Source: Nitrospirales bacterium | Lineage (GTDB): Bacteria > Nitrospirota > Nitrospiria > Nitrospirales > UBA8639 | Length of the DNA stretch: 64,000 nt | Direction: 5' to 3' | Assembly: GCA_031315865.1 (NCBI GenBank) | Contig: JALDRJ010000002.1 | Span: 2,826,001 to 2,890,000, forward strand | Shown here: one piece after another, positions 14,678-44,107 of the stretch | How positions within the stretch are numbered: position 1 is the stretch's first letter | Layout: each line of letters begins with the position of its first letter | Position numbers and translations under genes: made by a program | The notes under the pieces: generated by a model | Seen by the model: only the letters and a program-made list of their open reading frames with translations | Database searches by the model: none | What the model was told of the DNA's origin: nothing

Positions 14678-14697
14678 CGAAAGGAGAGTGAGGCGGT

Positions 14698-16900: not shown

Positions 16901-16918
16901 GAGAGACAAGACTAAAAC

Positions 16919-22233: not shown

Positions 22234-23345
22234 TGGACGAAACAATCATGAAAACGGAGTCGAAGAAGAAAATCAATGACGATCATCGTCCTTCCCTCGT
22301 TGGGGTATCGACGACGCAAGCCGCCGTGTTAACTCAAATTGGTTCTCCTCTCTCCATTATGACTCTTTCTCTGCCCCCGTTGAATCCGGGACAGGTGCTA
22401 GTCCAGGTGACATACAGTGGCCTCTGTCGGACTCAAATGATGGAGATGCAGGGAAAGAAAGGACCTGACAGGTATTTGCCCCATACGTTGGGACATGAAG
22501 GGTCTGGGATTGTCATGGATGTCGGATCGGCGGTCAAGAAGGTTAAGCCTGGAGACCATGTCATCTTGTCATGGATCAAAGGTACGGGGGCCGAAGTTTC
22601 GTCAACACAATACCAGAGTGACATGGGCATCATTCATTCAGGTGCCGTCAGTACGTTTATGAGGCATACGATTACTTGTGAAAATCGAGTGACGCCTATT
22701 CCGTCATCAATGCCCCTGCGAGAAGCTGCGTTGTTGGGCTGTGCGGTCCCGACGGGTGCAGGCATTGTTTTCAATACGGCACAGATTCAACCTGGAAGTC
22801 GTGTGGCGGTCTTTGGGCTTGGAGGCATTGGACTGAGTGTGTTGTTGGCCGCCAGTAGTGTAAAGGTCAAGTCTCTTATCGCGGTTGATATCTATGATCA
22901 CAAATTGGAACAAGCCCGTTTGTTGGGTGCGACGCACACATTCAATGCACGGTCAACGAATGTGAAAAAAGAAATCATGGACATGACCGACAATCAAGGT
23001 GTCGATTATGCGATTGAAGCGGTCGGACGTCGGGAAGCCATGGAGGACGCATTTCATGTCGTGCGGCCCAAAGGCGGATTGTGCGTCCTTGCGGGGAATG
23101 TCGCATACGGAGAAAAAATGTCCATCGATCCGTTCGATTTAATCAAAGGGAAACGACTGATTGGTACCTGGGGAGGCGAATCGGTTCCTGAACGTGACTT
23201 TCAACAGTATGTAGAGAGATTTTTAAACGGCGATTTTCCGTTGATGCGTCTCATCACACACGAGCAACCACTCGAAGAAATCAATCGAGTAATTGAGGCG
23301 ATGGAAATGGGGCAGGTTGGCCGAGCTTTGATAACAATGAGATAA
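22230..23345 (+). CDS. zinc-dependent alcohol dehydrogenase lacking the structural zinc site
   Basis: A 371-residue medium-chain dehydrogenase. Catalytic zinc ligands are visible as C66 (GLCRT), H89/E90 (GHEGSG) and C171 (GCAVPTG). GLGGIGLSVLLAA binds NAD(P), and VDIYDHKLEQA ends the coenzyme strand. The four-cysteine structural zinc lobe that normally follows the GHE motif is missing; that stretch reads WIKGTGAEVSS with no cysteines. The N-terminus carries about 25 extra charged residues. It shares a 4-base overlap with the methyltransferase and closes the cluster; the next gene is 75 bases away. Confidence 0.88.
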   Translation: MMDETIMKTESKKKINDDHRPSLVGVSTTQAAVLTQIGSPLSIMTLSLPPLNPGQVLVQVTYSGLCRTQMMEMQGKKGPDRYLPHTLGHEGSGIVMDVGSAVKKVKPGDHVILSWIKGTGAEVSSTQYQSDMGIIHSGAVSTFMRHTITCENRVTPIPSSMPLREAALLGCAVPTGAGIVFNTAQIQPGSRVAVFGLGGIGLSVLLAASSVKVKSLIAVDIYDHKLEQARLLGATHTFNARSTNVKKEIMDMTDNQGVDYAIEAVGRREAMEDAFHVVRPKGGLCVLAGNVAYGEKMSIDPFDLIKGKRLIGTWGGESVPERDFQQYVERFLNGDFPLMRLITHEQPLEEINRVIEAMEMGQVGRALITMR

Positions 23346-23420
23346 GGTTTATGGAGGCAATTGAATTATTCACTGCCTGGCTTATGAAGAATTGTAACCT
23401 TTTTCAATAATAGCTCCTTT

Positions 23421-25865: not shown

Positions 25866-25871
25866 GAACCC

Positions 25872-28800: not shown

Positions 28801-30212
28801 GGTGCGTGTTTGCGAGTGGTGAAGCCGAACGACGTCGCTTGCTTGAAGTCTATCCTCAATTAAGGCGAGTGGAGATCGTGAAGATGGGCATGGATCATCT
28901 GAGCACTCAAGGCGGCTCATCGTTATTCTGCGATCAATATAACGTGACGGACTATGTGTTGTGTGTTGGACGTCTTGAAACCCGAAAAAACCAGCTCATG
29001 CTCTTGAAGGCTCTTCAATATGAGTCTCTTCCGATCGTATTTGTCACCGGTGGAGTCTCCTACCAACCGGAATACGAAGATCTTTGCCGACGATTTCCAA
29101 GAACAGCTCCGACCATCTTTGTTGGCCGCTTGTCTGATGAGATGTTAGCGTCCTGTTACCAGGGGGCAAAAGTCTTTTGTTTGCCCAGCTGGTATGAGTT
29201 GCCGGGGATCGTGACAGTGGAAGCAGCTCGATTCGGGTGTGCCATTGTGGCAACTTCTTGGGGGACCTTGAAAGATTATCTTCCTTATGGTGTTCATTAC
29301 TGTGAGCCTGACGATCCGAATAGTATTCGCGATGCCATCCTCGATGCGTTCCGCATTCCGCCTCCGGCCATTCTTCAAACCGATGCCGCGCAATTTTGTT
29401 GGGACAAGACTGCCAATCGGTTGAAAAGTTTATATCTCGAAGTTTTAGCGCAAGCGCGAAAGACTTCTTCTCAATCTAGAGGGCGCTCTTCTGAAGGCTC
29501 TGATTCTCCTCACTCCGTGAGGTCCGAACTAAGCCTCGAATTACAAAAAGTCCAAGTTGCCATTACAAGAGGAAGGCTTGATGAAGCCCAGGATAGTCTT
29601 GAAAAAATCATCCGACATAATCCTACCGAATCAGACGCCTGGCTATCGTCTGGTGTCTTGTCTATGCAGCGGCAAGACTATCGAAGTGCGGTTGATGCCT
29701 TTATGAGAGCACTGAAATATGGAGGAAATGATCGAAAGTGCCGTATGGGACTCGTTATGGCATGGATGGGGGCCGAAGAAGCCCCAAAAGCGTCGAACGA
29801 GGCCTTAGAGATTCTGAAGGCGTATCCCGATGATGAAGAGGCTATTCATTGGTTAATCCGGGCTTGCACTGCCCTTGAAGATTGGAAAACGCTCGAGACG
29901 GCACTTTCTTACTATTTACAACGGAACCCTGCGAATTGTTCAGTTCGATTTGCCTTGGCGAGTGTGTATGTTCGTCTTGGCGAAAAAGAAGCTGCCAAGA
30001 CGCATATCAACACTTTAAAACTTCTTAGTCCGAACTTTGACGGGATGGACGAATTAGAGCGGTTGATGAACGCGCGCCCTAATTCCTCAACCCATTTTCA
30101 GCACAACGTTGGTACGCATCATATGACAGCAGTTGAAACTAAGGGTACCTATGGCAGAAATTTAGGAGAGAGCAATGTCCTGCAGGATTTGGAGATAGGA
30201 AGACCAGTGTAG
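25872..30212 (+). CDS. giant multidomain glycosyltransferase (GT4-GT2-TPR-GT4-TPR)
   Basis: A 1446-residue protein with five recognisable parts. An N-terminal GT4-like domain ends with GTGIQIKILESMAHGVPVVA near residue 340. A GT2 domain at about 455-690 has VTPTKNC, VDGASHDGTV and WLNADDHY. A helical TPR-like linker follows. A second GT4 domain at about 840-1190 has VGRLETRKNQ and LPSWYELPGI. Tandem TPR repeats run from about 1215 to 1400. It probably adds several sugars in succession on one scaffold. A GTG five codons in (25887) is better spaced from AAGGAA than the ATG at 25872, so the true start may be slightly later. The previous gene ends six bases upstream. Confidence 0.83.
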   Translation: MKEYDVNSMNTAISKALVFWPFYAFGARTGAHQVQLSDLMALIGLGYQVTLFGSELFGDPDTAWNIKDIGKLEDAWGIKVHLSTPGPIDRLFHAHQRATRLEHWDMYHTPWLLDEYRTVFKDLNPDLVVIYYAWWGKFAIGDEFHSATRILRSLDVLSHNDQIIQKVLPYLKEPSFPEYVDPIITEEDFFSNLQDGQTVQSEEYRIYDAYDCTIAITPADARIIKQQTLQTTVCDVPPALSVQALSNAYDGSPIFVGSDNPLNIQGYVFFALQVLPAVLHHCPDFSLKAIGGFSKKVAHVRGVELLGYVPNLKPYYASAPFSICPMLGGTGIQIKILESMAHGVPVVAMKQIAQASPLEHGVNGFIANNAEEFSRYVIQLSTDRSLCRKLGEAARDTIAGQFSLNRIVKKWREAIESAQCNREKTTTLLLPAIMESRSCKEEKQPMTSSDKIDITHPKISIVTPTKNCAHYLRECIESVLAQNYENFEHIIVDGASHDGTVEILKSYPHVKWISEPDNGEAEALNKALGMAEGDIISWLNADDHYVGTDVLRLVARAMSETEGRHLVYGKTLLTDERKTISWLQIPRVPITLPVLMRWWDLHELYQPSIFYSKALIDDIGKYREDLYFSIDYEYWLRIAAKGYSFHYVDQVLSQSRLFRQSGKSAQPRKEQEESWTQTAAAFQDHLSEVERIHFWKDYYRYQLPYLKQSDEPITPPNDEWAQIGLALVLRGCGVGSEVVKLLENTITLAPENADAHWLLGDEFLRGMKDIDRATPVLDKAQSLSFNLQKIATKRDFDIGRKTYGMSCGNGSEEVTHSVTSSRPHTISQENRYVDQGNRPLRVLFQNRPNAMSQPGGDTLLMNNFKRGLERAGVHVDVALGQAQSHDYDLVHVFNFATPEFTEQCARDAVQAGVPFVATALFEDWPRFLSKSSATIDVFRQYFASGFDEQQFSTALKQLHGLSSSPPSGNAFVAQHAGCVFASGEAERRRLLEVYPQLRRVEIVKMGMDHLSTQGGSSLFCDQYNVTDYVLCVGRLETRKNQLMLLKALQYESLPIVFVTGGVSYQPEYEDLCRRFPRTAPTIFVGRLSDEMLASCYQGAKVFCLPSWYELPGIVTVEAARFGCAIVATSWGTLKDYLPYGVHYCEPDDPNSIRDAILDAFRIPPPAILQTDAAQFCWDKTANRLKSLYLEVLAQARKTSSQSRGRSSEGSDSPHSVRSELSLELQKVQVAITRGRLDEAQDSLEKIIRHNPTESDAWLSSGVLSMQRQDYRSAVDAFMRALKYGGNDRKCRMGLVMAWMGAEEAPKASNEALEILKAYPDDEEAIHWLIRACTALEDWKTLETALSYYLQRNPANCSVRFALASVYVRLGEKEAAKTHINTLKLLSPNFDGMDELERLMNARPNSSTHFQHNVGTHHMTAVETKGTYGRNLGESNVLQDLEIGRPV

Positions 30213-30631
30213 AGTTCCCTAGATGATACGTTTATTACCGGGTGCGTGGAGCTGTCATTCAAGTTAGTCGCGTCCTTGATCAAATGGACCGTTGTTGTGC
30301 CTTCCAAGTATTGCCTTCCGAATTTTCTGGGGTTGATTAGAATTCCAAGAGCTGTTCCAACCAGAAGCCTTACCATAAATTCCTCAACATTCGTATTTTA
30401 AGAGTAGCTCAATTAATCCCCATATTGATCATTGGTACAGTCATTTTATCTTCACTACCCTAAAGAAACCTACAAGAATTTCCGAGAACAGTAAAAGAGT
30501 CCATCGAGTCCGTTGGTAGCACTTTTCTAACAATGGCGTTTTTTAGGTTTGGAATCCAGGCCAAACATAGAAGCATGTGAGACATGTAGCCAAAGGACCC
30601 CTTTATTCATAACCACATTGCTTGGTGATCT
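30213..30631. other. AT-rich 419-base non-coding gap
   Basis: There is no convincing gene. The one line I counted (30421-30480) is about 32 percent GC, much poorer than the genes on either side. A short minus-strand frame at its left end overlaps the preceding gene and is probably chance. I saw no clear terminator or well-spaced promoter. The gap separates the large glycosyltransferases from gmd and could mark an old junction. Confidence 0.45.
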
Positions 30632-31642
30632 ATGAAAGCACTCATTACGGGAATTACAGGACAAGATGGATCATATTTAGCTGAGCTTTTGCTTGAGAAA
30701 GGCTATGAAGTCCATGGCATTGTTCGGCGAGTGGCGCTGGAGGATCCTGACCGACGTTTATGGCGAATACGGCATATAAAAGACGATGTATGCTTGCATG
30801 CGGCCTCATTAGAAAGTTTGCCGAGTTTGTATCGGGTTTTCAAAGAAATCGTGCCGGATGAGTGTTATCATTTAGCCGCGCAAAGTTTCGTCACGTACTC
30901 GTTCGAAGATGAGTTTTCCACGTTGCAGACGAATATCAACGGGACCCATCATGTCTTATCCGCGCTCAAGGATTGTGCTCCGGATTGTCGATTCTATTTT
31001 GCCGCATCGAGCGAAATGTTTGGGAAGGTAGCAAACGTCCCGCAAGACGAGCAGACACTTTTTCACCCACGTTCCGCCTATGGAATTTCGAAAGTGTCCG
31101 GGTACCATCTGACAAGGAACTATCGAGAGGCGTATGGTATTCGTGCCTGGTGTGGGATTTTATACAATCATGAATCCCCGCGCAGGGGATTTGAATTTGT
31201 GACTCGGAAAATTACGTCTCACGCCGCGGCGATCAAACTCGGGCTGAAAAACGTGTTGCCATTGGGCAACCTTGATGCCTTGAGAGATTGGGGCCATGCT
31301 CAAGAGTATGTGTATGCGATGTGGTTGATGCTTCAACAAGATGATCCGGATGATTTTGTTATCGCGACAGGAGTCCAACATTCAGTTCGAGAATTTGCAG
31401 AAGAAGCCTTCGGATGTCTGGGGTTGGACTATCGTGACTATTGCCGGACCGAATCCCAGCTCTATCGACCTGCCGAGGTCGAGACGTTGCTCGGTGATGC
31501 GGAGAAGGCCAGAGTCAAGCTTGGCTGGTCTCCTCAAATTACCTTTTCCCAACTTGTGGAAGAAATGGTCGAGGGAGATTTAGAATTTCTGGAAAAAGGC
31601 CGTGCTCAGATCGTCGAGGGCCAGATGTTGAGTGCGGTCTAA
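30632..31642 (+). CDS. gmd: GDP-mannose 4,6-dehydratase
   Basis: A 336-residue extended SDR that converts GDP-mannose to GDP-4-keto-6-deoxymannose, the precursor of GDP-fucose, GDP-rhamnose and related sugars. The family marks are clear: ALITGITGQDGSYLAELLL at the N-terminus, LAAQSFV, ASSEMFG, YGISK as YxxxK, NHESPRRGFEFVTRKI, and RDWGHAQEYV. Length is slightly under E. coli Gmd (373). A GDP-heptose 4,6-dehydratase, a Gmd relative, is an alternative given the heptose genes upstream. No GDP-fucose synthase gene is adjacent; the SDR at 3110 could be its partner. Confidence 0.9.
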   Translation: MKALITGITGQDGSYLAELLLEKGYEVHGIVRRVALEDPDRRLWRIRHIKDDVCLHAASLESLPSLYRVFKEIVPDECYHLAAQSFVTYSFEDEFSTLQTNINGTHHVLSALKDCAPDCRFYFAASSEMFGKVANVPQDEQTLFHPRSAYGISKVSGYHLTRNYREAYGIRAWCGILYNHESPRRGFEFVTRKITSHAAAIKLGLKNVLPLGNLDALRDWGHAQEYVYAMWLMLQQDDPDDFVIATGVQHSVREFAEEAFGCLGLDYRDYCRTESQLYRPAEVETLLGDAEKARVKLGWSPQITFSQLVEEMVEGDLEFLEKGRAQIVEGQMLSAV

Positions 31643-31736
31643 GAAAGAACTTTTGCGTTCTGAACGCGTGCCAATAATTCTGTGCATAATTTTAGCATTC
31701 ATCATGCCGATGCATTCATAAGTTTTGATAATTTCT

Positions 31737-31766
31737 ATTCCATTGGAATGTGAAGTCCAATGGAAT
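31737..31766. repeat. perfect 11-bp inverted repeat
   Basis: ATTCCATTGGA at 31737-31747 and its exact reverse complement at 31756-31766 flank an 8-base loop. No T-run follows on either strand, so it is not a standard intrinsic terminator. It lies between gmd and the TylF-like gene and could be an RNA hairpin or a protein-binding site. Confidence 0.6.
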
Positions 31767-31937
31767 GAAACCCTGCGCTCAGACTATTCCTTCACGTCAG
31801 ATTGTTCTTTTAGCGATCTACCTTTTCCGTAATAACGCTTCCTGGCAATGTGCTCATATCTTACATGCTTATTACTCTACAGGCGACAACCTGGCTGTGT
31901 CAGAAAGTACTCTTATGCTTAGAGAAGGGATATATTA

Positions 31938-32969
31938 ATGGATACATTGCTGCTTACTTCATTAAATAGATATATGCACGAATCTATGGACCTTGTGCTT
32001 TACGATCTCTACGGGACTGCCTTGTCAGCGTTTTCTAGGAAACCATCATTGCGAGTGGCGGTTATCGGCGTGGATCAGTCGATATTTGAGAATGCCGAAG
32101 CCATTCATGATTATCGATTGGCAATCGAAGGATATTATGCAGGCCGTCCGCATGACATCTTTCATCCGAGCAAATCGATTCAAGAACTTCGAAGCTCTGA
32201 TTATGATCTTTTAATTGTCGGTGCGAATTCACAAGCTGAAGAAACCTCGCTTCTTCAGGAAATGAGCGATTATTTTTCTGGTGTCAATCGTTTAACATGC
32301 CCAGTCCTCTTAGCGAGAAGATTACGATCGGGTGTGAAAAATGCCTTTTTGAAGATTGGCCGCTTGGATACCTGTTTGAATATGAGAAAACTTGGGCTTG
32401 TTGCTCAGGCCCTGCTTTCGACTTACGACGGATGCATTTTAGAGTGTGGGGCTTTCAAGTGTAGCACGACGGTGTTTATGGGGCAGCTCTTGAGGGAGTG
32501 GGATGATGTCAGGCGCATCTATGCTCTGGATACCTATTCCGGTATGCCTTCCCCGACAACTTCAGATCAAGAGACGATTTATCAGCCTGGGACCTTTACT
32601 GAGACTTCGTTAGAGAGCGTGACGGGCTATGTCCAGGGACAAGGATTATCGAAGCAAATCAATCTGGTGAAAGGGCTGATCCAAGAGACGTTGCCAAAGG
32701 TTTTAGAACAAGAACCGCATGTCTCATTTGCCTTAGTCGATACCGATCAATACCAAGGAACTTTTGAGAGTCTTAACCTTATCGTCCCGAAACTTCAAGA
32801 AAATGGGATCGTTCTTATCGATGATTATAATGTCGAGGGTGTCAAGAAGGCTGTTTCCGAGATACAGGCTCTCTACCCCACTGTTGGCGGCGCAGAGATG
32901 TCGATGAATTTTTACATGCTCTGGAATCGGACAAATTCCTATTTCTTATCGAGTTGTCAGCCCTGCTGA
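31938..32969 (+). CDS. TylF/MycF-type sugar O-methyltransferase
   Basis: A 343-residue protein whose C-terminal two thirds match the TylF (macrocin O-methyltransferase) family: ILECGAFKCSTTVFM near residue 170 for SAM, LDTYSGMP near 200, and the metal-binding FALVDTDQYQGT and VLIDDYN near 265-300. These enzymes methylate hydroxyls of bound or free sugars and use a metal ion. The first 140 residues are an extra domain I do not recognise, with VIGVDQS and LLIVGANS suggesting a small alpha-beta fold. GAGAAGGG precedes the ATG. It is probably part of the surface or flagellar glycan set. Confidence 0.83.
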   Translation: MDTLLLTSLNRYMHESMDLVLYDLYGTALSAFSRKPSLRVAVIGVDQSIFENAEAIHDYRLAIEGYYAGRPHDIFHPSKSIQELRSSDYDLLIVGANSQAEETSLLQEMSDYFSGVNRLTCPVLLARRLRSGVKNAFLKIGRLDTCLNMRKLGLVAQALLSTYDGCILECGAFKCSTTVFMGQLLREWDDVRRIYALDTYSGMPSPTTSDQETIYQPGTFTETSLESVTGYVQGQGLSKQINLVKGLIQETLPKVLEQEPHVSFALVDTDQYQGTFESLNLIVPKLQENGIVLIDDYNVEGVKKAVSEIQALYPTVGGAEMSMNFYMLWNRTNSYFLSSCQPC

Positions 32970-33110: not shown

Positions 33111-33138
33111 TAAAGAAATATCGAAAAAGCGCCGACAA
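33111..33138 (+). promoter_or_regulatory. sigma-28 (FliA)-like promoter candidate
   Basis: TAAAGAAA at 33111-33118 and GCCGACAA at 33131-33138 match the FliA consensus boxes TAAAGTTT and GCCGATAA, with a 12-base spacer where 11 is usual. A transcript from here would start very close to the ATG at 33150, leaving almost no leader, so the match may be fortuitous. Confidence 0.35.
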
Positions 33139-33149: not shown

Positions 33150-34430
33150 ATGCTCAATCGTCTCGTTATTCAGCTGGCGAGATTAGGTGATCTCGTTCAA
33201 ACTTTGCCGGCTGTCGTCGCTTTACAGGCCGCTTACACTGAGGATCAGTTTGATCTTTTGTGTGCGGCGCCTCTGGTTTCGGTCGGCAAATCTTTCCCAG
33301 GCGTGAAACAGGTCTTGCCATGGGACGGAACCGAATGGGAGCAAATGGCGCAAAAAGTCTCATCTGAGACTGATACCGCGCTGTCTCAAGCGGCTGCATA
33401 TCTAGAACGGTATCAAAACAGTGCGTATGCCTTGGCCTATAACTTGAATAATCATTCTCGGGCCATCTTGACCGCGCATCTGTTGGCGGCCAAGGTGAAT
33501 GGCCCCGGTTGTTATGGACCTCTTTCATCAGAACTTCCAAACTGGAGCCGGTATTTGAATTTGGTCGGAGCGCATCGAGGAAGGAATCGTGTCCATCTGG
33601 CCGACGCGTTTTGCGGTCTGTGCGGGGTCAAACCTCCACGGACCGTTCCCATGTTGTGTCTGTCAGCCGCGAACCATGTGGAAAGGCTCGACGGTTTTAT
33701 GGCGCAGGATGCGCTGCGCGTGGCCGTCATCATCGGGTCGGGTGATCCTGAGCGACGCCTCCCGCTTCGTACCTGGGAGGAATGGATCACTACGTTTTTT
33801 TCTGCTTCCGCGCGGGGCCGTGTGGTCCTGGTTGGCGGGCCGGGAGAGCGGGAATTGGCTCGCGCGCTCTTGGATCTGGTGCCTCCGTTGTACATCGGGC
33901 GGATTTGGGATGTGTGCGGTCAAACGACGATTCCGCAGTTGGCGGAGCTCTTTTCTCGATGCGCATGGGTGGTCGGGTCTGATACGGGTCCGCTTCATCT
34001 GGCTGTGGCCAGCGGCGCCAGGGTACAAGGTTTCTATTTTTCGCGTGCCCGCGTTCATGAGACAGGGCCGTATGGGAAGGGGCATTGGGTATGGCAGGCG
34101 GAACGAACACCACCGCGACATACGTTGTGTGACATGCCGAATATGGGAGAGCCCGGGGTATGGCCGGAGTATTGGCCGGTACGGGAAAGTGTGGAACTGA
34201 TGCTGACGGAAAGATGTGCAAAGCTCCCGGCGGGATGGAGTCTCTGGCGAAGCCAGAAAGACGATTGGGGTGCTCATTTTTTCGGGTATGCCGCCTCCAG
34301 TCAGGAGCCGTCTGCCTATCGTCAACAAATCTGGGACATGCTCCATGAGCAAGAGAACGTGGATTGGGATGGCGTGTCCGCGCTCCTTCATGATGCAACC
34401 CGCGTGTCTGTGCCGTCCGGTGAGCTATGA
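33150..34430 (+). CDS. glycosyltransferase family 9 (heptosyltransferase-like)
   Basis: A 426-residue GT9 enzyme. The N-terminus (MLNRLVIQLARLGDLVQTLP) is typical of ADP-heptose transferases, and the donor-site motif SDTGPLHLA lies near residue 276, followed by a conserved HETGPYG. GT9 members usually transfer heptose from ADP-heptose. The gene sits at the head of a chain of glycosyltransferases that leads to the flagellin gene, so transfer onto flagellin is more likely than onto LPS core. Sequence here is visibly richer in GC than at 18-30 kb. It overlaps the next gene by four bases. Confidence 0.85.
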   Translation: MLNRLVIQLARLGDLVQTLPAVVALQAAYTEDQFDLLCAAPLVSVGKSFPGVKQVLPWDGTEWEQMAQKVSSETDTALSQAAAYLERYQNSAYALAYNLNNHSRAILTAHLLAAKVNGPGCYGPLSSELPNWSRYLNLVGAHRGRNRVHLADAFCGLCGVKPPRTVPMLCLSAANHVERLDGFMAQDALRVAVIIGSGDPERRLPLRTWEEWITTFFSASARGRVVLVGGPGERELARALLDLVPPLYIGRIWDVCGQTTIPQLAELFSRCAWVVGSDTGPLHLAVASGARVQGFYFSRARVHETGPYGKGHWVWQAERTPPRHTLCDMPNMGEPGVWPEYWPVRESVELMLTERCAKLPAGWSLWRSQKDDWGAHFFGYAASSQEPSAYRQQIWDMLHEQENVDWDGVSALLHDATRVSVPSGEL

Positions 34431-35527
34431 ATATTCTTCTCTTAGGGTTTCCCGTCTTGAAACATGCGTTCCTGGAGTGCGGCCATGATGTGCGTACGTG
34501 CACTACGGATCAAACCGGCGATCTGTGGATTCCTGAATTTCCTGTCCCGGCTGAGCAGGTTATTCAGGCGCTCCCTTGTGGATGGAAGCCAGACCTTGTC
34601 CTGCTCATGGACGAAAGTACGGAGCCGATGTTTTTAGGGTTGGAACGCCTCGATATTCCACTCGCCTGGTATACGATCGATGCTCATCTGCATTTGGACT
34701 GGCACAAAGCCTACACAGCCGTATTCGATTATGTGTTCGTGGCCCAAAAAGATTACGTGCCGGAGTATGCGTATGATGCCTCCCGTCAGGTTGTTCAATG
34801 GCTGCCGTTGTTCTGTAATCCTGAGAAAGATCGTTATGCGCCCTTGACGAAAATATATGACCTGAGCTTTGTGGGGTACCTGAATCCACGATGGAAACCT
34901 GAACGCAGCCGGTTGCTCGAGGCGATTCAAGAACGAATTCCCATTCATTTGACCACTGGAGAATATGTGAGCGTTTTCAATCGTTCGAAGGTTGTGTTGA
35001 ATGAGAGCGCGGCCAATGACGTCAATTTTCGCGTATTCGAGGCCCTGGCATGCGGAAGCTTTCTGTTGACGGAAAAAGTCGGAAACGGCTTTGAAGAATT
35101 ATTCCAAGATCGGACGCATTTGGCGATGTACGAACGGGAGAATGTCGATCAGATCGTCGAACTCGCGAACTTCTATGCGAGTCATGATTCGGAACGTGAA
35201 GCCATTGCGCGGGAAGGAAGAGCCAGAGTGCTCGCTTCTCACACAACCACGCACCGGGCGCAAACCATCGTTCACACGATACGGCATGCTGACTCCCAGG
35301 CGCTGGTCAGACAAAGACAGGCCCGGCTGCCGGACATCTATCGTCAGTTGGATCGTGTCTATGATCACGCTGGAAAGGTCTATGAGTTGGTCGGTTCCCA
35401 GTACGCGAATTCTTTCTTAAAGTCGCGCGATTATTTTCGGACCGCAGCGGCGTATCGAAACGCCAGAGTCCATGTCGTTCAGAAACTGAGCGAGGAACGA
35501 TCATTCGCACGATCGAACGGCCCATGA
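34427..35527 (+). CDS. CgeB-like glycosyltransferase
   Basis: A 366-residue protein of the CgeB/spore-type glycosyltransferase group (GT-B fold). It has PDLVLLMDESTEP and LAWYTIDAH in the N-terminal half. LSFVGYLNPRWKPERSRLL and a C-terminal VNFRVFEALACGSFLLTE with GNGFEELFQD mark the donor-binding half. It overlaps both neighbours by four bases (ATGA at each end). The following gene is a tandem paralogue with the same motif series. It is probably involved in adding sugars to flagellin; donor and acceptor are unknown. Confidence 0.8.
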   Translation: MNILLLGFPVLKHAFLECGHDVRTCTTDQTGDLWIPEFPVPAEQVIQALPCGWKPDLVLLMDESTEPMFLGLERLDIPLAWYTIDAHLHLDWHKAYTAVFDYVFVAQKDYVPEYAYDASRQVVQWLPLFCNPEKDRYAPLTKIYDLSFVGYLNPRWKPERSRLLEAIQERIPIHLTTGEYVSVFNRSKVVLNESAANDVNFRVFEALACGSFLLTEKVGNGFEELFQDRTHLAMYERENVDQIVELANFYASHDSEREAIAREGRARVLASHTTTHRAQTIVHTIRHADSQALVRQRQARLPDIYRQLDRVYDHAGKVYELVGSQYANSFLKSRDYFRTAAAYRNARVHVVQKLSEERSFARSNGP

Positions 35528-36594
35528 AGATACTATTGTTAGGATTACCGGCGTTGAAGGATGGTTTTCGCGAGTTGGGGCATGAGGTACTGACGTGTCC
35601 CACGGATAATACCGGCGATATTCAAGTGCCGGAATGGCCGATATCCATCGATCGGTTGTGGCATTGCCTGCCCAAGCGATGGGACCCTGATCTGGTTTTG
35701 CTGACCGATGAAAGTACGCATCCGCTGTTTTTCGGGCTGGAACGTCTTGAAGTGCCGTTAGGATGGTATGCGATCGATTCACATATCCATCATCGGTGGC
35801 ATCAGGCCTACGCCGCCGCGTTCGACGCGATCTTTGTCGCTCAACGGGACTTTATACCAAGTTACATGCGCGACGAGTCCAGACAAACGGTCAGGTGGCT
35901 GCCTCTGTTTGCTCCGATCATCCCCGCCGTCGATGAAGATAATCCTCGGGTACATGATTTGAGTTTTGTCGGCAGCATGAACCCTGCCCACAATCCTACG
36001 CGGTGCCAATTTCTCCGAATGTTGCAGGCAGCGTTTCCTCTGCATGTTTCGACCGGAGATTATTGTTCCGTGTTTACTCGGTCCAAAATGATCCTCAACC
36101 AATGCGTCAACAACGACATGAATTTCCGTACGTTTGAAGCGATGGCATGTGGAGGGCTATTGCTGATGGAACGGGTGGGAAATGGCTTGGAAGAGCTATT
36201 CCAGGACAAGACCCATTGTGCGATGTACGAAAAAGGCAATATCGACGAAGTTATTCAGATCGCTGAATATTATGCTTCACATAGGGAGGAGCGTGAGGCC
36301 ATTGCTGAGCGTGGACGTTCAGAAGTGAGGGAGAAACACACGGCGGTTCATCGCGCACAGTCCATTCTTGATTCGTTCGAGGCGATGGATGCGCAATATA
36401 TTCTTCGCCAGCGTCGTGATCGTCAAGGTGAGATTCTTTTTTTATTGGCTTCCATCTATGAATACTGCGCCTCCTGTTACGACGGAATCTCCCAATGGCC
36501 TCAGGATAACCCTTCGCGGTCCAGGCGATACGTAGAGGTTGGGAAAAGGTATCGGGAGCTGAGTCATCAAATCCATCATGAGATAGGGGTCTAA
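35524..36594 (+). CDS. CgeB-like glycosyltransferase, tandem paralogue
   Basis: A 356-residue paralogue of the preceding protein. Shared landmarks include PDLVLLTDESTHP, LGWYAIDSHIH, LSFVGSMNPAHNPTRCQFL, MNFRTFEAMACGGLLLME and GNGLEELFQDKTH, in the same order and at the same spacing. It arose by tandem duplication and has since diverged, chiefly in the C-terminal 60 residues. The 4-base overlap with the previous gene and the 13-base gap to the next indicate one transcript. Confidence 0.8.
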   Translation: MKILLLGLPALKDGFRELGHEVLTCPTDNTGDIQVPEWPISIDRLWHCLPKRWDPDLVLLTDESTHPLFFGLERLEVPLGWYAIDSHIHHRWHQAYAAAFDAIFVAQRDFIPSYMRDESRQTVRWLPLFAPIIPAVDEDNPRVHDLSFVGSMNPAHNPTRCQFLRMLQAAFPLHVSTGDYCSVFTRSKMILNQCVNNDMNFRTFEAMACGGLLLMERVGNGLEELFQDKTHCAMYEKGNIDEVIQIAEYYASHREEREAIAERGRSEVREKHTAVHRAQSILDSFEAMDAQYILRQRRDRQGEILFLLASIYEYCASCYDGISQWPQDNPSRSRRYVEVGKRYRELSHQIHHEIGV

Positions 36595-36607
36595 GGAACG
36601 TGTTGCG

Positions 36608-38425
36608 ATGAGCCTGTTACAAGAAAATCTTGAAATTGTTCGTCTTCATGATCCTCAGCTAGCTCAACAACTTCTTGTTGAGAGAGGAGGGGCTCTCAAG
36701 GTTGAAGACGCCAAAAACGGGATGCTGACCGCGAAAGCTGGAGGACAGTGGATCCATAGCGCGTATGATCCCCTCAAAGAGGCCAATACTTGGGCAGAAG
36801 GGGTCGTGGCAAAAATCCAACCGGATGAAATTCCGCTCATCATGGGAGTGGGCCTCCTTTATCACGTTGAGGCCTTACAACAGCAGATTGCACATGCGAC
36901 CTCAATTCTGGTGCTCGTCCCGGATTTGAGAGAATTATATGATGCGCTTTCCGTGAGAGCGCTTGGTCGATGGGGGGAGCGTATCCAGTGGCTATGGGGC
37001 GAAAGTCAAGACGTGGCTGCTTCTGTCTCCCAAACGCATGCCAGGCTCCATCTCATTCGTCATGAGCCATCGTCAGCGTTGCATGAAGAATATATCAGGA
37101 CGTTTCAACAGCACCTGCGTGAGCGAGTGTCACATGAACGGGGAGGCAGGCTTCATGTTGCCGTTGTGGGGCCGATTTATGGCGGGTCTCTTTCGGTCGC
37201 TCACCATGTCGTTGCAGCCTTGGAACATCTCGGACATCGAGTCAGCTGGATCGATCATTCTCTTCATTATCCTGGTTATAAAAGTTTGGAGAACCTTCGC
37301 GATCCACAATTACGATTGACGATGCAGAGCCGTTTCGGCGAGACGCTTGGAGTCGTCAGCCTTGCTCATATCGCGGACGATCCGCCCGACCTTGTTCTGG
37401 CGATGGCGCAGGCGCCGTTGTCCATGCCGGTTTTGGAACAGCTTCGGAAGAAGAAAGTGCTCACGGCCATGTGGTTCGTCGAAAATTTCAGACATTTTAC
37501 CTATTGGCAGCAAGTGGCCGCCGGCTATGAGTTCTGGTTTGTCATGCAGCAGAAGCCCTGTATCGATGCGTTATCGCATGCCGGGGCCAGGCATGTGAGT
37601 TACTTGCCGCTGGCGGCGAATCCGGAGATTCATCGCCCACTCGTCTGTTCGCCGGACGAGGAGGCGGAATTCGGTGCGGACGTCTCGTTTTTGGGCGCGG
37701 GCTATCCCAATCGCCGTTTCCTGCTTCAAGCACTCCTGCATCAGGGTTGGTCATTCAAAATCTGGGGAAATGAATGGGAGAAGGCCGGTCCGCTTGAGGC
37801 TGTCTTGCAACGAAACGGAGCGCGTATCGATTCAGACACGAGCGTCAAGATCTTTAATTGTACGAAGGTGAATATCAATCTTCATTCGTACACGGGAGAA
37901 GGATTCGATCCAGACGGTGATAGCCTCAATCCCAGGATGTTCGAACTGGCGGCATGCGGTGCCTTTCAAGTCTCCGATGCCAGGTCGCTGTTATGGGAGC
38001 ATTTTGATGACACGATGCTGGCGGTCATCAAAAGGCCTGAAGAATTGGTAACGACCGTGACGCAATACCTCGCCGATCCACATGCGCGTCAGAGTATGGC
38101 CGATGCGTCACGGTCGCACGTACTGCGGCATCATACCTATGTGCATCGTATGGAAACCTTATTGCGTGAAGTCGGTCTTCATCAGCCTGATCGTGTGGGG
38201 GCGGTTTTGCGAGGCGAACGCAATGCATCTTCTTTGATCGTGAAAAGTCAGGCATCCCCAGAATTGATTCCGTTACTACGGCCGTTCCGCGCGGAGGAAC
38301 GTGTCGAGTTGAGCGATGTCGCGGCCAACATTCGCGCGAAGGGGCCGACAGCCGTTTTAAGCCGAGAGGAATTGCTGGTCTTGATGATGGATGAATATCG
38401 GCAAGAAACTCGGGATTTTGTCTAG
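36608..38425 (+). CDS. large CgeB-like glycosyltransferase with Maf-like N-terminus
   Basis: A 605-residue protein. The first 170 residues contain WIHSAYDPLKEANTWAE and PLIMGVGLLYHVEAL, which recall the N-terminal region of Maf-type flagellin glycosylation proteins (HSxYDPxKEA). From about residue 180 on, it is a CgeB-like glycosyltransferase with VGPIYGGSLSVAHH, VSFLGAGYPNRRFLLQ and NPRMFELAACGAFQVSD. The join of the two suggests a dedicated flagellar glycosylation enzyme. The Maf likeness is based on short motifs only. Confidence 0.75.
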   Translation: MSLLQENLEIVRLHDPQLAQQLLVERGGALKVEDAKNGMLTAKAGGQWIHSAYDPLKEANTWAEGVVAKIQPDEIPLIMGVGLLYHVEALQQQIAHATSILVLVPDLRELYDALSVRALGRWGERIQWLWGESQDVAASVSQTHARLHLIRHEPSSALHEEYIRTFQQHLRERVSHERGGRLHVAVVGPIYGGSLSVAHHVVAALEHLGHRVSWIDHSLHYPGYKSLENLRDPQLRLTMQSRFGETLGVVSLAHIADDPPDLVLAMAQAPLSMPVLEQLRKKKVLTAMWFVENFRHFTYWQQVAAGYEFWFVMQQKPCIDALSHAGARHVSYLPLAANPEIHRPLVCSPDEEAEFGADVSFLGAGYPNRRFLLQALLHQGWSFKIWGNEWEKAGPLEAVLQRNGARIDSDTSVKIFNCTKVNINLHSYTGEGFDPDGDSLNPRMFELAACGAFQVSDARSLLWEHFDDTMLAVIKRPEELVTTVTQYLADPHARQSMADASRSHVLRHHTYVHRMETLLREVGLHQPDRVGAVLRGERNASSLIVKSQASPELIPLLRPFRAEERVELSDVAANIRAKGPTAVLSREELLVLMMDEYRQETRDFV

Positions 38426-38453
38426 GCCTGAAGGGCTAGGGTTCTGACGGGAA

Positions 38454-40109
38454 ATGAGTAGACAAGTTCTGATCATTAACGTGACAAGGATGGGCGACTT
38501 GGTACAGATGACGCCATTGTTGCAGCGCTTGGAATATGAATGGCCCGGCGTCGCGATCGATCTGGTCGTCGATACAGAGTTTGCTGAAATGGCAAGCCTT
38601 CTTCCCAGAATTCGGCATGTGCTCTCGTATGACTTTCAACTGCTCATGGACCAAACGCGTGTCCGGGCCCGTGATTTGGTTGCGCTCTATCGCGGTGTTG
38701 CCCTGTGGGCCAAACCTCTGGCCGATATTCAATATGATCGTGTCATCAATCTCACGTTTAACCGCCGAAGCGCATATTTGACGGGCTATATTGGCGCTCA
38801 TGATACTCGAGGGCTCACCACCGCGCCGGACGGAAATATCATCGTCAGAAATCCGTGGATGCGGTATTTTCTCGACATGCATACCTATCGAAAGTTTAAT
38901 CGTTTTAATCTTGTCGATGTCTATGCGTTGGGCGGAAGCGGTCAGGGTCCTTTTGCGCCTATTGAATTAAAACATCCCGCCGCTGAACAGCAGCAATGGG
39001 CAAACGCCCTGCTTGCTTCATGTGGAAAGCCATCAGCCTGGATAGCCGTGCAAATCGGTGCGAGCGATGTGATGAAGGCCTGGCGTCCGGGCTATTTTGG
39101 TCAGGCCATGGCCTTGATGAGTCAACGCCTGAATGTCGGCTTTGTCCTGATTGGAAGCAAAAAAGAGTCGGCAGTCGTTCAGTCTGCGTTGCAGGCTTTT
39201 AAGCAGGCAGACGGCGCGGCGCCCATGTGCAATGCTATCGGAAAAACAAATCTTTCTCAGTTGATCGCTTTGCTTACTCACTGTCATCTCATGCTGACGA
39301 ATGATACGGGACCCATGCATCTCGCTGTCGGCGAGAAAGTCCCAATCGTCAACCTGTCGGTCGGGCATGTGGATTTTCGAGAGACGGGTCCCTATGGACG
39401 CAATCATTGGATTATTCAACCAGAGATCGAATGCGGACCGTGCGGGTTTGATCAAGTCTGTGCGCATCAAAGTTGCAAAGACCGGCTGCTGCCTCGTCTT
39501 GTTGCTGAGGTTTGCCTTCACGCGTTGGGGAAAGGTGGAGTGCCAACATCGACGGGAGGGGCCCGCCTGTATACGTCCGGTATCGATGAGGATCAGCTTG
39601 GAACCTATACGCTGCTCCGCGGAGTCGAGGATCCACTTCAGCAGTGGTATGGAACATTTTGGAGAAGGTTTTGGTATGACGACTGTACAGGGCAGATGAG
39701 TCGAACCCCGGGACCATCCGGGCAACCACCGGATTTTGATCAGGTCCAAGAAGTCTTCACGAAGCTCGAACCCTTGCTGACATTCCTGTGTGAGGCGGCG
39801 GATGAGATGGTGGCCCTGACGTCACAGCCGTCTTTGTCAGTCGACCGGATCACATCTTGTCATGCGCGCGTGAATCAGGTCGCGCATGAGGCTCGCGTCC
39901 TGGGTCGAATGTGTCCGGCATTCAGCCCGATTACGTCCGCCGGCTTTCGAGATACGTACAATCTTGGTGATTCAGATCTCCATGGAATGGCTCGTGAACA
40001 GGCGAAGGCCTATGCGACGTGGCAGAGTCGTACACGGGAGGTCATTCGTCAGTTAACAACCAATCATACGCCAACAAGGAGGGATGTGTATGCAGGTTCA
40101 ACTCGATGA
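38454..40109 (+). CDS. glycosyltransferase family 9 with C-terminal extension
   Basis: A 551-residue GT9 protein. The N-terminal VLIINVTRMGDLVQMTPLL and the NDTGPMHLAVG motif near residue 283 are those of ADP-heptose transferases. A cysteine group follows (CGPCGFDQVC, near residue 325), a feature seen in some GT9 proteins. The last 180 residues are an extension that I do not recognise and that lacks membrane segments. It is the last glycosyltransferase before flagellin and overlaps the small unknown gene downstream. Confidence 0.82.
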   Translation: MSRQVLIINVTRMGDLVQMTPLLQRLEYEWPGVAIDLVVDTEFAEMASLLPRIRHVLSYDFQLLMDQTRVRARDLVALYRGVALWAKPLADIQYDRVINLTFNRRSAYLTGYIGAHDTRGLTTAPDGNIIVRNPWMRYFLDMHTYRKFNRFNLVDVYALGGSGQGPFAPIELKHPAAEQQQWANALLASCGKPSAWIAVQIGASDVMKAWRPGYFGQAMALMSQRLNVGFVLIGSKKESAVVQSALQAFKQADGAAPMCNAIGKTNLSQLIALLTHCHLMLTNDTGPMHLAVGEKVPIVNLSVGHVDFRETGPYGRNHWIIQPEIECGPCGFDQVCAHQSCKDRLLPRLVAEVCLHALGKGGVPTSTGGARLYTSGIDEDQLGTYTLLRGVEDPLQQWYGTFWRRFWYDDCTGQMSRTPGPSGQPPDFDQVQEVFTKLEPLLTFLCEAADEMVALTSQPSLSVDRITSCHARVNQVAHEARVLGRMCPAFSPITSAGFRDTYNLGDSDLHGMAREQAKAYATWQSRTREVIRQLTTNHTPTRRDVYAGSTR

Positions 40110-40623
40110 AGAGACGTGGGAAATGTCCGATACCGCCAAACTTGAAGAAGTGATCGCTCGTCTGAGTGACAAAGCCCATGAAAGAGGGTGCCTGGTCACG
40201 AACCTGAAAGTGGGTCAACGGTCGTTTACCGATCGGGATCTCGTGCCGTCGGTCCTTGCGCAAGAAGCTGGCGCCTGGGGAAGAGTCGAGGCGACGAGTC
40301 AGCCCCTTCAAACGATCGTCGAAAGTGGGGCGCGAAGCGCCAAGGAATTCGGCGTTGGTCTGAAGGATGAGGCTGAAACATTAGTGCGGGCTTTCCGTCA
40401 TGGGGAAAAACGGTTCCGGCAACTCGATGATTGGTTCGGACGTCTCGCGGATTATGTGGAATGGACGGAACTCGCGAAATCAGTCGGGACGACGCAGTCT
40501 TCGTCTGATTCGATCGTCAAGTGGTTGCCTGACATTATTGATGCCCGGGAACGGTCGGCTATCGTGGAATTGGCCGACTATTTGGAATTTGAAGTGGTTC
40601 CACGATTACCGTCGCGTAGCTAG
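40090..40623 (+). CDS. uncharacterised protein upstream of flagellin
   Basis: A 177-residue, mostly charged and helical protein without signal peptide or membrane segment. I do not recognise its family. The ATG at 40090 is chosen over the one at 40084 because AAGGAGGG at 40076-40083 touches the earlier codon but is well spaced from the later. It overlaps the end of the GT9 gene by 20 bases and ends 252 bases before flagellin. The position suggests a role in flagellar assembly or glycosylation, possibly as a chaperone or regulator, but that is inference only. Confidence 0.65.
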   Translation: MQVQLDEETWEMSDTAKLEEVIARLSDKAHERGCLVTNLKVGQRSFTDRDLVPSVLAQEAGAWGRVEATSQPLQTIVESGARSAKEFGVGLKDEAETLVRAFRHGEKRFRQLDDWFGRLADYVEWTELAKSVGTTQSSSDSIVKWLPDIIDARERSAIVELADYLEFEVVPRLPSRS

Positions 40624-40727: not shown

Positions 40728-40754
40728 TCAAGTCTTTCGTGTTTGATCCGATAC
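40728..40754 (+). promoter_or_regulatory. sigma-28 (FliA) promoter of flagellin
   Basis: TCAAGTCT at 40728-40735 and TCCGATAC at 40747-40754 match the FliA boxes TAAAGTTT and GCCGATAA in six of eight positions each, with the canonical 11-base spacer. The site lies about 120 bases before the flagellin start, which is normal for a flagellin gene with a leader. Confidence 0.65.
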
Positions 40755-40875: not shown

Positions 40876-41703
40876 ATGGCACTTGTCGTTAACACTAACA
40901 TCGCGTCTATCAACGCTCAGCGGAACCTTGAAGTCAACACGAATTCATTGAACGGTTCGGTTGCGCGTCTCTCCTCAGGTCTTCGAATTACCCGGGCTGC
41001 AGACGATGCCGCGGGATTGGGTATTTCTGAAACACTTCGTGCGCAAATCAGAAGTATTAATCAAGCCGCTCGAAACGCGAACGATGGTATCAGTCTGTTG
41101 CAGATCGCTGACGGTGGCGCCGCCAATATCGGGAATTTGTTGGGACGGCTCCGGGAATTGGCAGAACAGTCGGCGAGTGGAATCCTGGGGGCGACCGAGC
41201 GGTCGTACCTGGATCAAGAGTTTGTCGCACTTCGCTCGGAAATTGACCGGATTGCCTCAGTGACAGAATTCAACAATGTGAAACTGTTGAGCGGTTCGGA
41301 CAATAATAGTCTTTCAATCCAGATCGGATTTCGAAGCTCATCGAACGATACGTTATCGATCGCGCTCAATGATTTGACAACGAGTGATTTGAGTCTGAGC
41401 TCCGTCAACGTCTCAACCTCTTCCGGAGCGTTGAGTGCGCTGTCAAACATCGATAGCGCGATTAGCGCGGTGGCGAGCGCTCGAGCGACGATTGGTTCGT
41501 TGCAGAATCGTATTGATGCCGCTGTTCAGAATCTGCAAGTCGCCAATGAGAACATCACGGCTGCAGAATCACGAATCCGTGATGCCGATATTGCGTTTGA
41601 AACGTCACAATTCGTGCGAAATCAAATCTTGGTGCAAGCTGGGACATCGATTTTGGCACAAGCCAATACCTTGCCTCAGCAAGCGCTTGCGCTGCTGCAG
41701 TAA
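40876..41703 (+). CDS. fliC: flagellin
   Basis: A 275-residue flagellin, the filament subunit, exported by the flagellar type III apparatus. Its N-terminal D0/D1 region (NTNIASINAQRNL, VARLSSGLRI, ADDAAGLGISE) and C-terminal region (AAESRIRDADIAFE, FVRNQILVQAGTSILAQAN) are complete. The variable centre is short and rich in serine and threonine, giving possible O-glycosylation sites; five glycosyltransferase genes lie just upstream. AAGGAGGA precedes the ATG. A sigma-28 promoter candidate lies upstream and a strong hairpin follows the stop. Confidence 0.96.
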   Translation: MALVVNTNIASINAQRNLEVNTNSLNGSVARLSSGLRITRAADDAAGLGISETLRAQIRSINQAARNANDGISLLQIADGGAANIGNLLGRLRELAEQSASGILGATERSYLDQEFVALRSEIDRIASVTEFNNVKLLSGSDNNSLSIQIGFRSSSNDTLSIALNDLTTSDLSLSSVNVSTSSGALSALSNIDSAISAVASARATIGSLQNRIDAAVQNLQVANENITAAESRIRDADIAFETSQFVRNQILVQAGTSILAQANTLPQQALALLQ

Positions 41704-41778: not shown

Positions 41779-42171
41779 ATGATACAAGGCGTTCCAGAAT
41801 CTACATCGGTGGTGTTGTCGATCGGACAACACGGACGCGATCGTTCTGGAGCCAAGGCGATTTCTGAACAGACTGAAGTTCCGGAAAAAAGGGAAGCCGT
41901 TCGTTTGTCGTCATTATCGGAATCGAAGAGTCGCCAGAATGCTTCAGAGGTACAGAATCTTGAACAAACGGTAGCGAAACTCCAGGATACGCTTAATCAG
42001 ATCGATCCGAAGATTCAGTTTTCCGTCGAAGAGGACTTGAATCAAGTCGTGGTCAAAGTGGTTGAACGTGATTCTGGCGAGCTCATTCGTCAGTTTCCAC
42101 CGGAAGAGGTCCTGCGCGTTCAACGGTTTTTCGAAGAACAACGAGGGTTTCTTCTCAAAGAAGAGGCCTAA
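41779..42171 (+). CDS. flaG: FlaG family protein
   Basis: A 130-residue protein of the FlaG family, which affects filament length and cap function in polar flagella. The C-terminal half has the defining pattern IQFSVEEDLNQVVVKVVERDSG followed by IRQFPPEEVLRV, while the N-terminal half is low in structure. It lies between flagellin and fliD, the standard place for flaG. Confidence 0.88.
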   Translation: MIQGVPESTSVVLSIGQHGRDRSGAKAISEQTEVPEKREAVRLSSLSESKSRQNASEVQNLEQTVAKLQDTLNQIDPKIQFSVEEDLNQVVVKVVERDSGELIRQFPPEEVLRVQRFFEEQRGFLLKEEA

Positions 42172-42261: not shown

Positions 42262-42299
42262 GCAGGCAGGATGCTCCAACATAACAGGGAGTGTTTGAG

Positions 42300-43688
42300 A
42301 TGAACATCAGTTTTGGCGGATTAGGCAATGGAGTCGACTTTGGGCAGATCGTGGACTTTTTAGTCAAGGCCGAGCGGATTCCCATTGACCGATTAACCGA
42401 GAAAAAGCTCGCCTCCCAGAAAAAACTCACCGACTTCGGGTCAGTGGGGACCAAGTTGCTGAGTCTGCAGAGCACTGCGAATAGTCTTCGAACCCGCCTG
42501 AGTTTTGATAAGACCAAGGTTGATGTCAGCACGGCGAGCACGCAGAATATCTTGTCCGCGACCTCCTCCTCAACGGCCACAGCAGGGACGCATACGGTAA
42601 CCGTCAATCAATTAGCCACGGCGCACCAAGTGGCTTCGAAGTCTACGACAACCGTGGCCTCGACCACGACGGATATTGTCAGCGGTTCCTCGGGGACGTT
42701 CTCCTTCACGGTTGCAGGAGGCGCTACGCAGACCGTGACCCTTTCGAGCGATGCCACGCTCGACGATTTAACGAATGCCATCAATGACCTGGGAGCCGGT
42801 GTGAGCGCTTCCATATTGAACACTGGCAGTGAGTCTTCTCCAGCCTATCGGTTGATCCTGACCGCCAATGATACTGGGGCGGCGAATACGATCGCGATTA
42901 CAGCAGATGATACGACGCTCGACACTGTTTCGTCGGGGGTGGATACGTTGCAGGCGGCGCAAGATTCAGAAGTGGTCCTAGGCGCGGCAGGGCAGGATCA
43001 AGTGACGCTTCAACGTTCCAGTAATACACTGACCGATGTCATTACGGGTGTGACCTTGAATCTTCAGGGAACGGATACCAACAATCCTGTCACGATTGCC
43101 GTCACACAGGATGTCGAGGCCGTCAAAGAAGGAATCACCTCGCTCGTTGATGCCTATAACGATGTAGTGTCGTTCATTAATGAACGGACCGTCTATAACG
43201 CCGAAACCGAGGAGCGCGGCATCTTCGTTGGAGAGACCGTCGTGCGAACGGTCTTGGATAAAATCCGTCGCGCCCTTTCCGACCAGGTGAGTGGCCTGTC
43301 TACTGTCTCGTCCGCAGGTCAGATCGGGTTTCAGACGCAGCCCCATGATGGGACCATCGAGATAGATGAAACTGATCTTGACGCGCGTCTGAGCGACTCG
43401 TTCGATGAAGTCCGTGAGCTCTTTATCAATAATCCGGTCAATGGGACGACAGGAATCGCGGAACGGCTGGTTGACGCCATCGATGTGCTGGACGATCTAG
43501 AGTTTGGCGCACTGGCTCTCAGGCAAAACTCACTTTCCGATGAAGTGAACGATTTCGACGAGCAAATTAATGTTCTTGAAACCCGTTTGGTGACGTTTGA
43601 AGAACAACAGCGAATTAAGTTCGCCAATCTTGACGGATTGCTAGCCAGTTTACAGTCCCAGTTGGACAGTTTGAATTCACTGATATAA
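42300..43688 (+). CDS. fliD: flagellar filament cap protein
   Basis: A 462-residue FliD, which caps the growing filament and guides flagellin insertion. The N-terminal GLGNGVDFGQIVDFLVKAER is typical. A long Thr/Ser-rich middle follows (TATAGTHTVTVNQLATAHQV), and the C-terminal part carries the coiled coil (DEVNDFDEQINVLETRL, LDGLLASLQSQLDSL). The ATG at 42300 is preceded by AGGGAG at a good distance, whereas the in-frame GTG at 42291 would overlap that site. Length is normal for a short-type FliD. Confidence 0.93.
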   Translation: MNISFGGLGNGVDFGQIVDFLVKAERIPIDRLTEKKLASQKKLTDFGSVGTKLLSLQSTANSLRTRLSFDKTKVDVSTASTQNILSATSSSTATAGTHTVTVNQLATAHQVASKSTTTVASTTTDIVSGSSGTFSFTVAGGATQTVTLSSDATLDDLTNAINDLGAGVSASILNTGSESSPAYRLILTANDTGAANTIAITADDTTLDTVSSGVDTLQAAQDSEVVLGAAGQDQVTLQRSSNTLTDVITGVTLNLQGTDTNNPVTIAVTQDVEAVKEGITSLVDAYNDVVSFINERTVYNAETEERGIFVGETVVRTVLDKIRRALSDQVSGLSTVSSAGQIGFQTQPHDGTIEIDETDLDARLSDSFDEVRELFINNPVNGTTGIAERLVDAIDVLDDLEFGALALRQNSLSDEVNDFDEQINVLETRLVTFEEQQRIKFANLDGLLASLQSQLDSLNSLI

Positions 43689-43714: not shown

Positions 43715-44107
43715 ATGATGCAAGGTGCGCAATTGTATGCCAAGACGCAAGTCCAGACGGCCTCCTCTGTGCAAGTTGTCGTGTTGCTCTATGACGGCGT
43801 CATTCAGTCCCTGAAGTTAGCGCAAGAGGGCATCCAGACGAACAACATGAAAGATAAAGCCCGGTTCCTGGATCGAGCGCTTGCGGTGGTGAATGAATTG
43901 TCGGCCGCGCTCGACATGGAGCAAGGTGGAGCCATCGCAGCCGACCTTCGTCGTTTGTATGAGTATGTTCAGCATGAAATCACGCAATCGAACCTTCATC
44001 ATGACTTTCGACGATTGAATAGTCCGATTCGGTGCATGGGAGTGATTCGAGAAGCCTGGGTGGAATTGGCCAGACAGGGAGTCATGCCTGAGGCTGTTGG
44101 CGTTTGA
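43715..44107 (+). CDS. fliS: flagellar export chaperone FliS
   Basis: A 130-residue helical protein that binds flagellin in the cytoplasm and prevents early polymerisation. The N-terminal YAKTQVQTASSVQVVVLLYDGVI matches the FliS signature, and ALDMEQGGAIAADLRRLYEYV is the conserved helical core. It is placed directly after fliD, as in most flagellar operons. The ATG at 43715 and a second at 43718 are both possible, with AAGGAAGG upstream. Confidence 0.93.
   Translation: MMQGAQLYAKTQVQTASSVQVVVLLYDGVIQSLKLAQEGIQTNNMKDKARFLDRALAVVNELSAALDMEQGGAIAADLRRLYEYVQHEITQSNLHHDFRRLNSPIRCMGVIREAWVELARQGVMPEAVGV

Follow-up and report, generated by a model that had tools for sequence, protein, structure and literature searches.

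The closest described relatives of the locus studied here are the Maf systems of flagellin glycosylation, in which the enzyme either carries TPR repeats (Maf-1) or is accompanied by GlfM (Maf-2). As far as the account of Unay et al. 2024 relayed in PMC13317340 goes, GlfM is an adaptor joining Maf-2 to flagellin, and its reported place is next to flagellin on one side and a TPR-less Maf on the other. Maf-dependent glycosylation in Aeromonas caviae is cytoplasmic and precedes transfer to the FliS-type chaperone (PMC4065374). FlmG of Caulobacter, a TPR-bearing cytoplasmic flagellin glycosyltransferase, transfers pseudaminic acid (PMC7591256), and flagellar glycosylation islands have been described in Clostridium, Pseudomonas and Shewanella (PMC13317340, PMC8036289, PMC3765264), where the sfm flagellin-modification operon of Shewanella includes an ilvB-like gene, sfmB, and has a sigma28 box. 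Proteins can also be O-heptosylated, as exemplified by the BAHT enzyme TibC (PMC4358343). Our literature search returned no relevant paper tying CgeB to flagellin glycosylation and none on flagellin glycosylation in Nitrospira.

The genes immediately upstream of fliC in the window (the whole 64-kb stretch of Nitrospirales DNA that was analysed) resemble these systems, and sequence comparison supports flagellin glycosylation by a conserved GT9-Cg3-GT9-P6 core as a variant of the known flagellar glycosylation islands. Variable sugar genes at a flagellar locus are shared with the islands of Clostridium, Pseudomonas and Shewanella; the transferases, however, are others, and the core found here is common to several phyla. 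Likewise, a sigma28-like box and a gene for a TPP enzyme (12908-14677), comparable to sfmB, recall the sfm operon, and TPR-bearing glycosyltransferases upstream in the island recall FlmG, whereas no TPR is detected by Pfam in Cg3 or the GT9 enzymes. We consider it probable that a flagellin O-glycosylation island has its conserved core, the part nearest fliC, in the interval 33150-40623, and that it operates by the mechanism proposed below. That a flagellin glycosylation island lies here had been suggested by an earlier sequence-only reading, and the suggestion is now strongly supported by comparative genomics, by a Maf N-terminal domain and by sigma28-like boxes.

Gene layout, promoter boxes and the surrounding island

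The interval, encoded like the flagellar genes behind it on the forward (+) strand, opens with the core gene GT9a (33150..34430), which specifies a family 9 glycosyltransferase (PF01075, E 4.6e-13). It is followed by the lineage-specific CgeB-type glycosyltransferase genes Cg1 (34427..35527; PF13524, E 1.6e-29) and Cg2 (35524..36594; PF13524, E 5.7e-28), and then by the core gene Cg3 (36608..38425; PF13524, E 1.1e-33, and DUF3880), whose product joins a Maf N-terminal domain (approximately residues 1-180) to a CgeB-type GT-B. The next core gene, GT9b (38454..40109; PF01075, E 2.5e-20), encodes a family 9 glycosyltransferase with a C-terminal extension of about 200 aa. According to the ORF calls, there are overlaps of 4 bp each between GT9a and Cg1 and between Cg1 and Cg2, 13 bp separate Cg2 from Cg3 and 28 bp separate Cg3 from GT9b, and GT9b overlaps P6. 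The tight packing of two GT9 and three CgeB-type genes upstream of fliC, pointed out previously, thus agrees with both the Pfam matches and the ORF calls. The last gene of the interval, P6, had gone unmentioned; it belongs to a conserved family, runs from a conserved start at 40090 to 40623 (40090..40623), and its longest ORF, from 40084, encodes 179 aa of a GlfM-like candidate helper. Beyond a spacing of 252 bp lie fliC (40876..41703; PF00669/PF00700), encoding a short flagellin of 275 aa that is the presumed acceptor, flaG (41779..42171; PF03646), a short form of fliD (42291..43688; 465 aa; PF02465/PF07195) and fliS (43715..44107; PF02561).

A sigma28-like box, TAAAG-N15-GCCGACAA, is located 39 bp before the GT9a start (33111..33138, + strand). 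It occurs at exactly -39 in 5/5 genomes of the genus, with scores of 10.5-12 compared with a null of 8.6 +/- 0.77. A few boxes elsewhere in the 64 kb score equally, such scores being uncommon rather than unique, and the case for the GT9a box consequently rests on its conservation. The spacer between P6 and fliC contains the sigma28-like promoter box of fliC (40728..40754, + strand), which reached at least the 95th percentile of the null in 63/63 orthologous upstream regions. Across the order, the regions before Cg3, GT9b and P6 showed no excess of sigma28-like boxes over the null.

The interval lies at the fliC end of a larger island, about 43 kb long, that starts after csrA and places sugar and glycosyltransferase genes within a flagellar locus. 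Immediately before the window lie flgI, a gene for a rod-binding protein, flgM, flgN, flgK, flgL, a gene for a GGDEF regulator, fliW and csrA. Where a relative has a flgL-like gene and fliC on the same contig, the distance between them is mostly about 20 to 64 kb. The remainder of the island within the window (203..32969, + strand) contains nucleotide-sugar, methyltransferase, radical-SAM and TPR-glycosyltransferase genes. In the HldE-like protein encoded there at 7053-8603 the two domains are reversed, the adenylyltransferase being N-terminal and the kinase C-terminal; a second, diverged copy is found at G000:C2:2546803-2548227. Amid the sugar genes, an E1 alpha/beta-like pair and an acetolactate-synthase-like TPP enzyme (9688-14677) could yield two-carbon branched sugars, and a ketopantoate hydroxymethyltransferase-like gene follows at 14698-15654. 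An adjacent pair of B12-binding radical SAM genes occupies 17762-21462, in an AT-rich part of the island. Two large multi-domain proteins of 814 and 1446 aa, with GT2/GT4 and TPR domains, are encoded at 23421-30212; these TPR-bearing enzymes, FlmG-like in having TPR, diverge strongly among relatives. A very large multi-domain glycosyltransferase upstream is usually present in the order, and it is highly diverged even inside the window's genus. With its conserved core beside fliC and its otherwise variable content, the island suggests a common inner glycan bearing variable outer chains.

Distribution of the core and flagellin length

We searched 117 genomes of the window's order. In those whose flagellin measures about 276 aa, the gene order GT9a-Cg3-GT9b-P6-fliC-flaG-fliD-fliS is constant, and the few missing genes coincide with contig ends; a GT9a orthologue was present in 60 genomes, its absences also falling at contig ends. 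Outside the window's genus, Cg1 and Cg2 occur in just one near relative (G058). The trio of CgeB genes highlighted by the sequence-only reading is therefore present in the window, but it is not conserved, most relatives having Cg3 alone. The core, consisting of GT9a, Cg3, GT9b and P6, recurs in Nitrospirota and in other phyla. A scan with Cg3 found 485 relatives, and neighbourhoods were examined for the best 80 of the 485 loci, which include Nitrospirota, Nitrospinota, Desulfobacterota, Latescibacterota and Calditrichota. Among these best 80, GT9b lies directly 3' of Cg3 in 78/80, in several phyla, P6 was found in 54/80, and the reachable fliC mostly encodes 276-291 aa. A Desulfarculaceae locus (L197) preserves the same order, Cg3-GT9b-P6-fliC-flaG-fliD-fliS, and outside the window's order fliC often lies 10-48 kb away from the core. 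Phylum-wide conservation of gene order rules out chance proximity of the GT9/CgeB genes to fliC. The only core-bearing genome without a flagellin match (G059) has a contig ending beside P6.

The flagellin of the window has almost no outer domain, and the genome's other Flagellin_N match is FlgL. The presence of the core follows flagellin length: within the window's order it was found in 62/62 scored genomes encoding a flagellin of ~276 aa and in 0/10 encoding one of 606-644 aa, FliD measuring about 770-790 aa in the latter ten. In the rest of the phylum, the core (scored by its GT9b orthologue) was present in 29/35 short-flagellin genomes versus 0/42 longer-flagellin genomes (Fisher p 1.2e-15), and the same comparison by genus gave 14/6 versus 0/22 (p 7.3e-7), statistics that are to be read with the genomes not being independent. 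Moreover, three genera (g12, g19 and g111) hold both states, and in each of them the core and flagellin length switch together. Among the six short-flagellin genomes outside the order that lack the core, one (G180) is 72% complete and another (G243) has a fliC contig that ends within a Cg3-like gene. An apparent 501-aa flagellin (L245) proved to be an over-long ORF whose true start gives about 277 aa.

At the position of the core, most of the ten long-flagellin genomes carry an ORF of Maf type, about 880-1190 aa long. Two Maf ORFs of about 885 aa from long-flagellin relatives contain PF01973 and TPR, and one of them also contains the Maf N-terminal domain. One of these long-flagellin genomes encodes NeuB, a UDP-GlcNAc 2-epimerase and a PseB-type dehydratase nearby. 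In four long-flagellin loci (L117, L115, L116 and L118), an ORF of 360-390 aa is situated between Maf and fliC, and the L116 copy is BNR/sialidase-like.

Flagellins both with and without outer domains are known in Deltaproteobacteria (PMC12445082), and in the literature searched we found no connection between flagellin outer domains and a glycosylation core. The strong correlation described above backs the hypothesis that a glycan may replace the outer domains of flagellin. The central region of the short flagellins comprises about 49 aa with an average of 32% Ser/Thr, and at least 93% of the aligned sequences have Ser/Thr at positions S139, S145, S154, T159, S180 and T181, which are candidate sites only.

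Cg3 and P6

The sequence-only reading had described a Maf-like start in one of the CgeB enzymes, and this start is real in Cg3. The first ~190 residues of the Cg3 family align with the Maf N-terminus of long-flagellin relatives (hhalign, probability 97.4%, E 1.5e-11), Cg3 orthologues of other orders match PF20157 (Maf_flag10_N) above the cut-off, with E down to 2.9e-12, and a Foldseek search with Cg3 (AlphaFold2 model pLDDT 87.8) lists the Maf structure 5mu5 (E 1.1e-7). The window's Cg3 protein by itself gives no Pfam Maf match. The remainder of the protein adopts a GT-B fold resembling family GT4, and its catalytic half corresponds to PF13524/DUF3880. Since the catalytic PF01973 (MptE-like) domain is absent, Cg3 is a Maf-N/CgeB chimera and not a Maf. 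Cg3 is likely to be the priming enzyme. The locus thus shares with the Maf systems a Maf N-terminal domain, a flagellar location and a small adaptor-type neighbour of a TPR-less enzyme, but the catalytic half is CgeB-type GT-B here and MptE-like PF01973 in Maf, two GT9 enzymes are added, and no nonulosonic-acid genes were recognised in the annotated part of the island.

P6 matches no Pfam or NCBIfam family. Its family spans the phylum, has a C-terminal motif like DWxxLADLxEYExxP, and is encoded immediately 3' of GT9b in nearly all loci examined. A phylum-wide P6 profile matched a 208-aa protein of the clostridium Acetoanaerobium noterae (E 2.6e-9; none of 2000 shuffles came near), whose gene sits between those for flagellin and a TPR-less Maf. 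In addition, Mafs of Paenibacillus contain a P6-like N-terminal domain, with E ~2e-6 when the profile includes the Acetoanaerobium protein and ~2e-4 when it does not; in Paenibacillus cellulosilyticus (L261:5028-9569), a tandem pair of Mafs was observed, each with such a domain. Further Maf/GlfM pairs were sought on plasmids, yielding two useful records only. We therefore call P6 GlfM-like on the basis of its position and its homology to a protein in the GlfM position. With GlfM as relayed in PMC13317340, P6 shares the adjacency to a TPR-less Maf-domain enzyme and, in Acetoanaerobium, a homologue in the same position; it differs from the GlfM of that account in accompanying a CgeB-type enzyme, the Maf-CgeB chimera. 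P6 was absent from the long-flagellin loci examined, and the scanned Mafs of long-flagellin relatives carry their own TPR.

In the AlphaFold2 model of P6 (pLDDT 90), a small N-terminal domain rich in beta structure is joined to a helical bundle, and comparison with PDB folds gave no clear match. The helical half resembled mostly designed bundles (Z up to 10.7) and the N-terminal half ubiquitin-like folds (Z ~5), similarities of the predicted model that we read as common arrangements only. In profile comparison, no relationship of P6 to FliS, FlaG, FliD, flagellin or a glycosyltransferase domain was supported. An adaptor role of P6 appears likely from its genomic context and homology.

Proposed mechanism, donor sugar and alternative explanations

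Modelling the order of events on A. caviae (PMC4065374), we infer that the P6 adaptor and Cg3, which combines a Maf N-terminal domain with a CgeB catalytic half and has no TPR, would dock on flagellin in the cytoplasm. Cg3 would attach the first sugar to Ser/Thr in a short exposed loop, and GT9a and GT9b would append more sugars, heptose being the probable one. Lineage-specific lengthening of the chain may then fall to Cg1, Cg2 and the large upstream TPR glycosyltransferases. The glycosylated flagellin would be handed to FliS and exported, and the glycan would stand where the missing D2/D3 domains of flagellin would be. More tentatively, with a probability short of even, the locus could represent a second multi-phylum system besides Maf/nonulosonic acid, made up of a Maf-N/CgeB chimera, a GlfM-like adaptor and a GT9 pair, with a heptose chain replacing D2/D3.

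Heptose-containing chains on flagellin had been proposed previously, with the heptose-like genes at the far end of the window as the source of ADP-heptose. The second part of this proposal has weakened: these genes score under the equivalog cut-offs, the reversed HldE-like gene is part of the island in just two genera, the window's own and a related one, and a canonical stand-alone HldC-type gene is located elsewhere in the genome, at 1.24 Mb. HldC-type genes are, moreover, near-universal in the phylum, core-bearing genomes included, so supply from within the window is not needed. Nearly every genome with the core probably has ADP-heptose at its disposal, which would permit use of this donor but does not show it. 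No HldD above the cut-off was found in this genome; D,D-heptose is therefore expected, if any. As to the chains themselves, both the GT9a and the GT9b family keep the G-D and D-T-G-P-x-H motifs invariant; in WaaC these motifs bind ADP-heptose, and this likeness to the LPS heptosyltransferases WaaC/WaaF speaks for heptose. The best equivalog scores of GT9a and GT9b (45 and 72 bits), in contrast, lie far below the cut-offs for heptosyltransferases I, II and III (134.6-185.3). The PDB profile matches of the GT9 enzymes were 3tov, 1psw and 2h1f, TibC not being among them at E 0.1. Judged from motif conservation, heptose in the flagellin glycan is plausible. The opposing reading, that the core glycosylates flagellin with a GT9 donor other than ADP-heptose and a chain free of heptose, draws on the low scores and on the lack of an HldC-type match at E 1e-15 in a few genomes with the core (G048 and G226 among them), for which assembly gaps are possible; given the invariant motifs and the near-universal HldC-type genes, we hold it to be somewhat unlikely.

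The remaining alternatives concern what the core acts on and why it follows flagellin length. GT9 enzymes are classically LPS heptosyltransferases and the island is rich in nucleotide-sugar genes, so that the GT9/CgeB enzymes might make LPS core, O-antigen or capsule beside fliC by accident. Against this stand the essential absence of the core from the phylum's non-flagellated genomes, its restriction to short flagellins and the Maf domain within it. Furthermore, the four strongest GT9 genes of the genome, presumably the LPS set, are located 2-12 kb past the window end. Confinement to flagellated genomes and this separate set lead us to reject an LPS locus, and we give the broader explanation only a very small chance. 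Flagellin might instead be modified as proposed while its link with length merely reflects co-transfer of a block containing fliC, flaG, fliD, fliS and the core; FliD and flagellin lengths do switch together, as block exchange predicts. The association nevertheless spans several phyla and persists where fliC and the core are tens of kb apart, and we regard co-transfer as an unlikely explanation.

If our reading of the locus as a flagellin O-glycosylation core is correct, it would add a widespread flagellin glycosylation machinery in Nitrospirota (including Leptospirillum), Desulfobacterota, Nitrospinota and others. The uncharacterised P6 family would gain a testable adaptor role. Why some flagellins have no outer domains would likewise become a testable question, with a sugar coat that may substitute for them.
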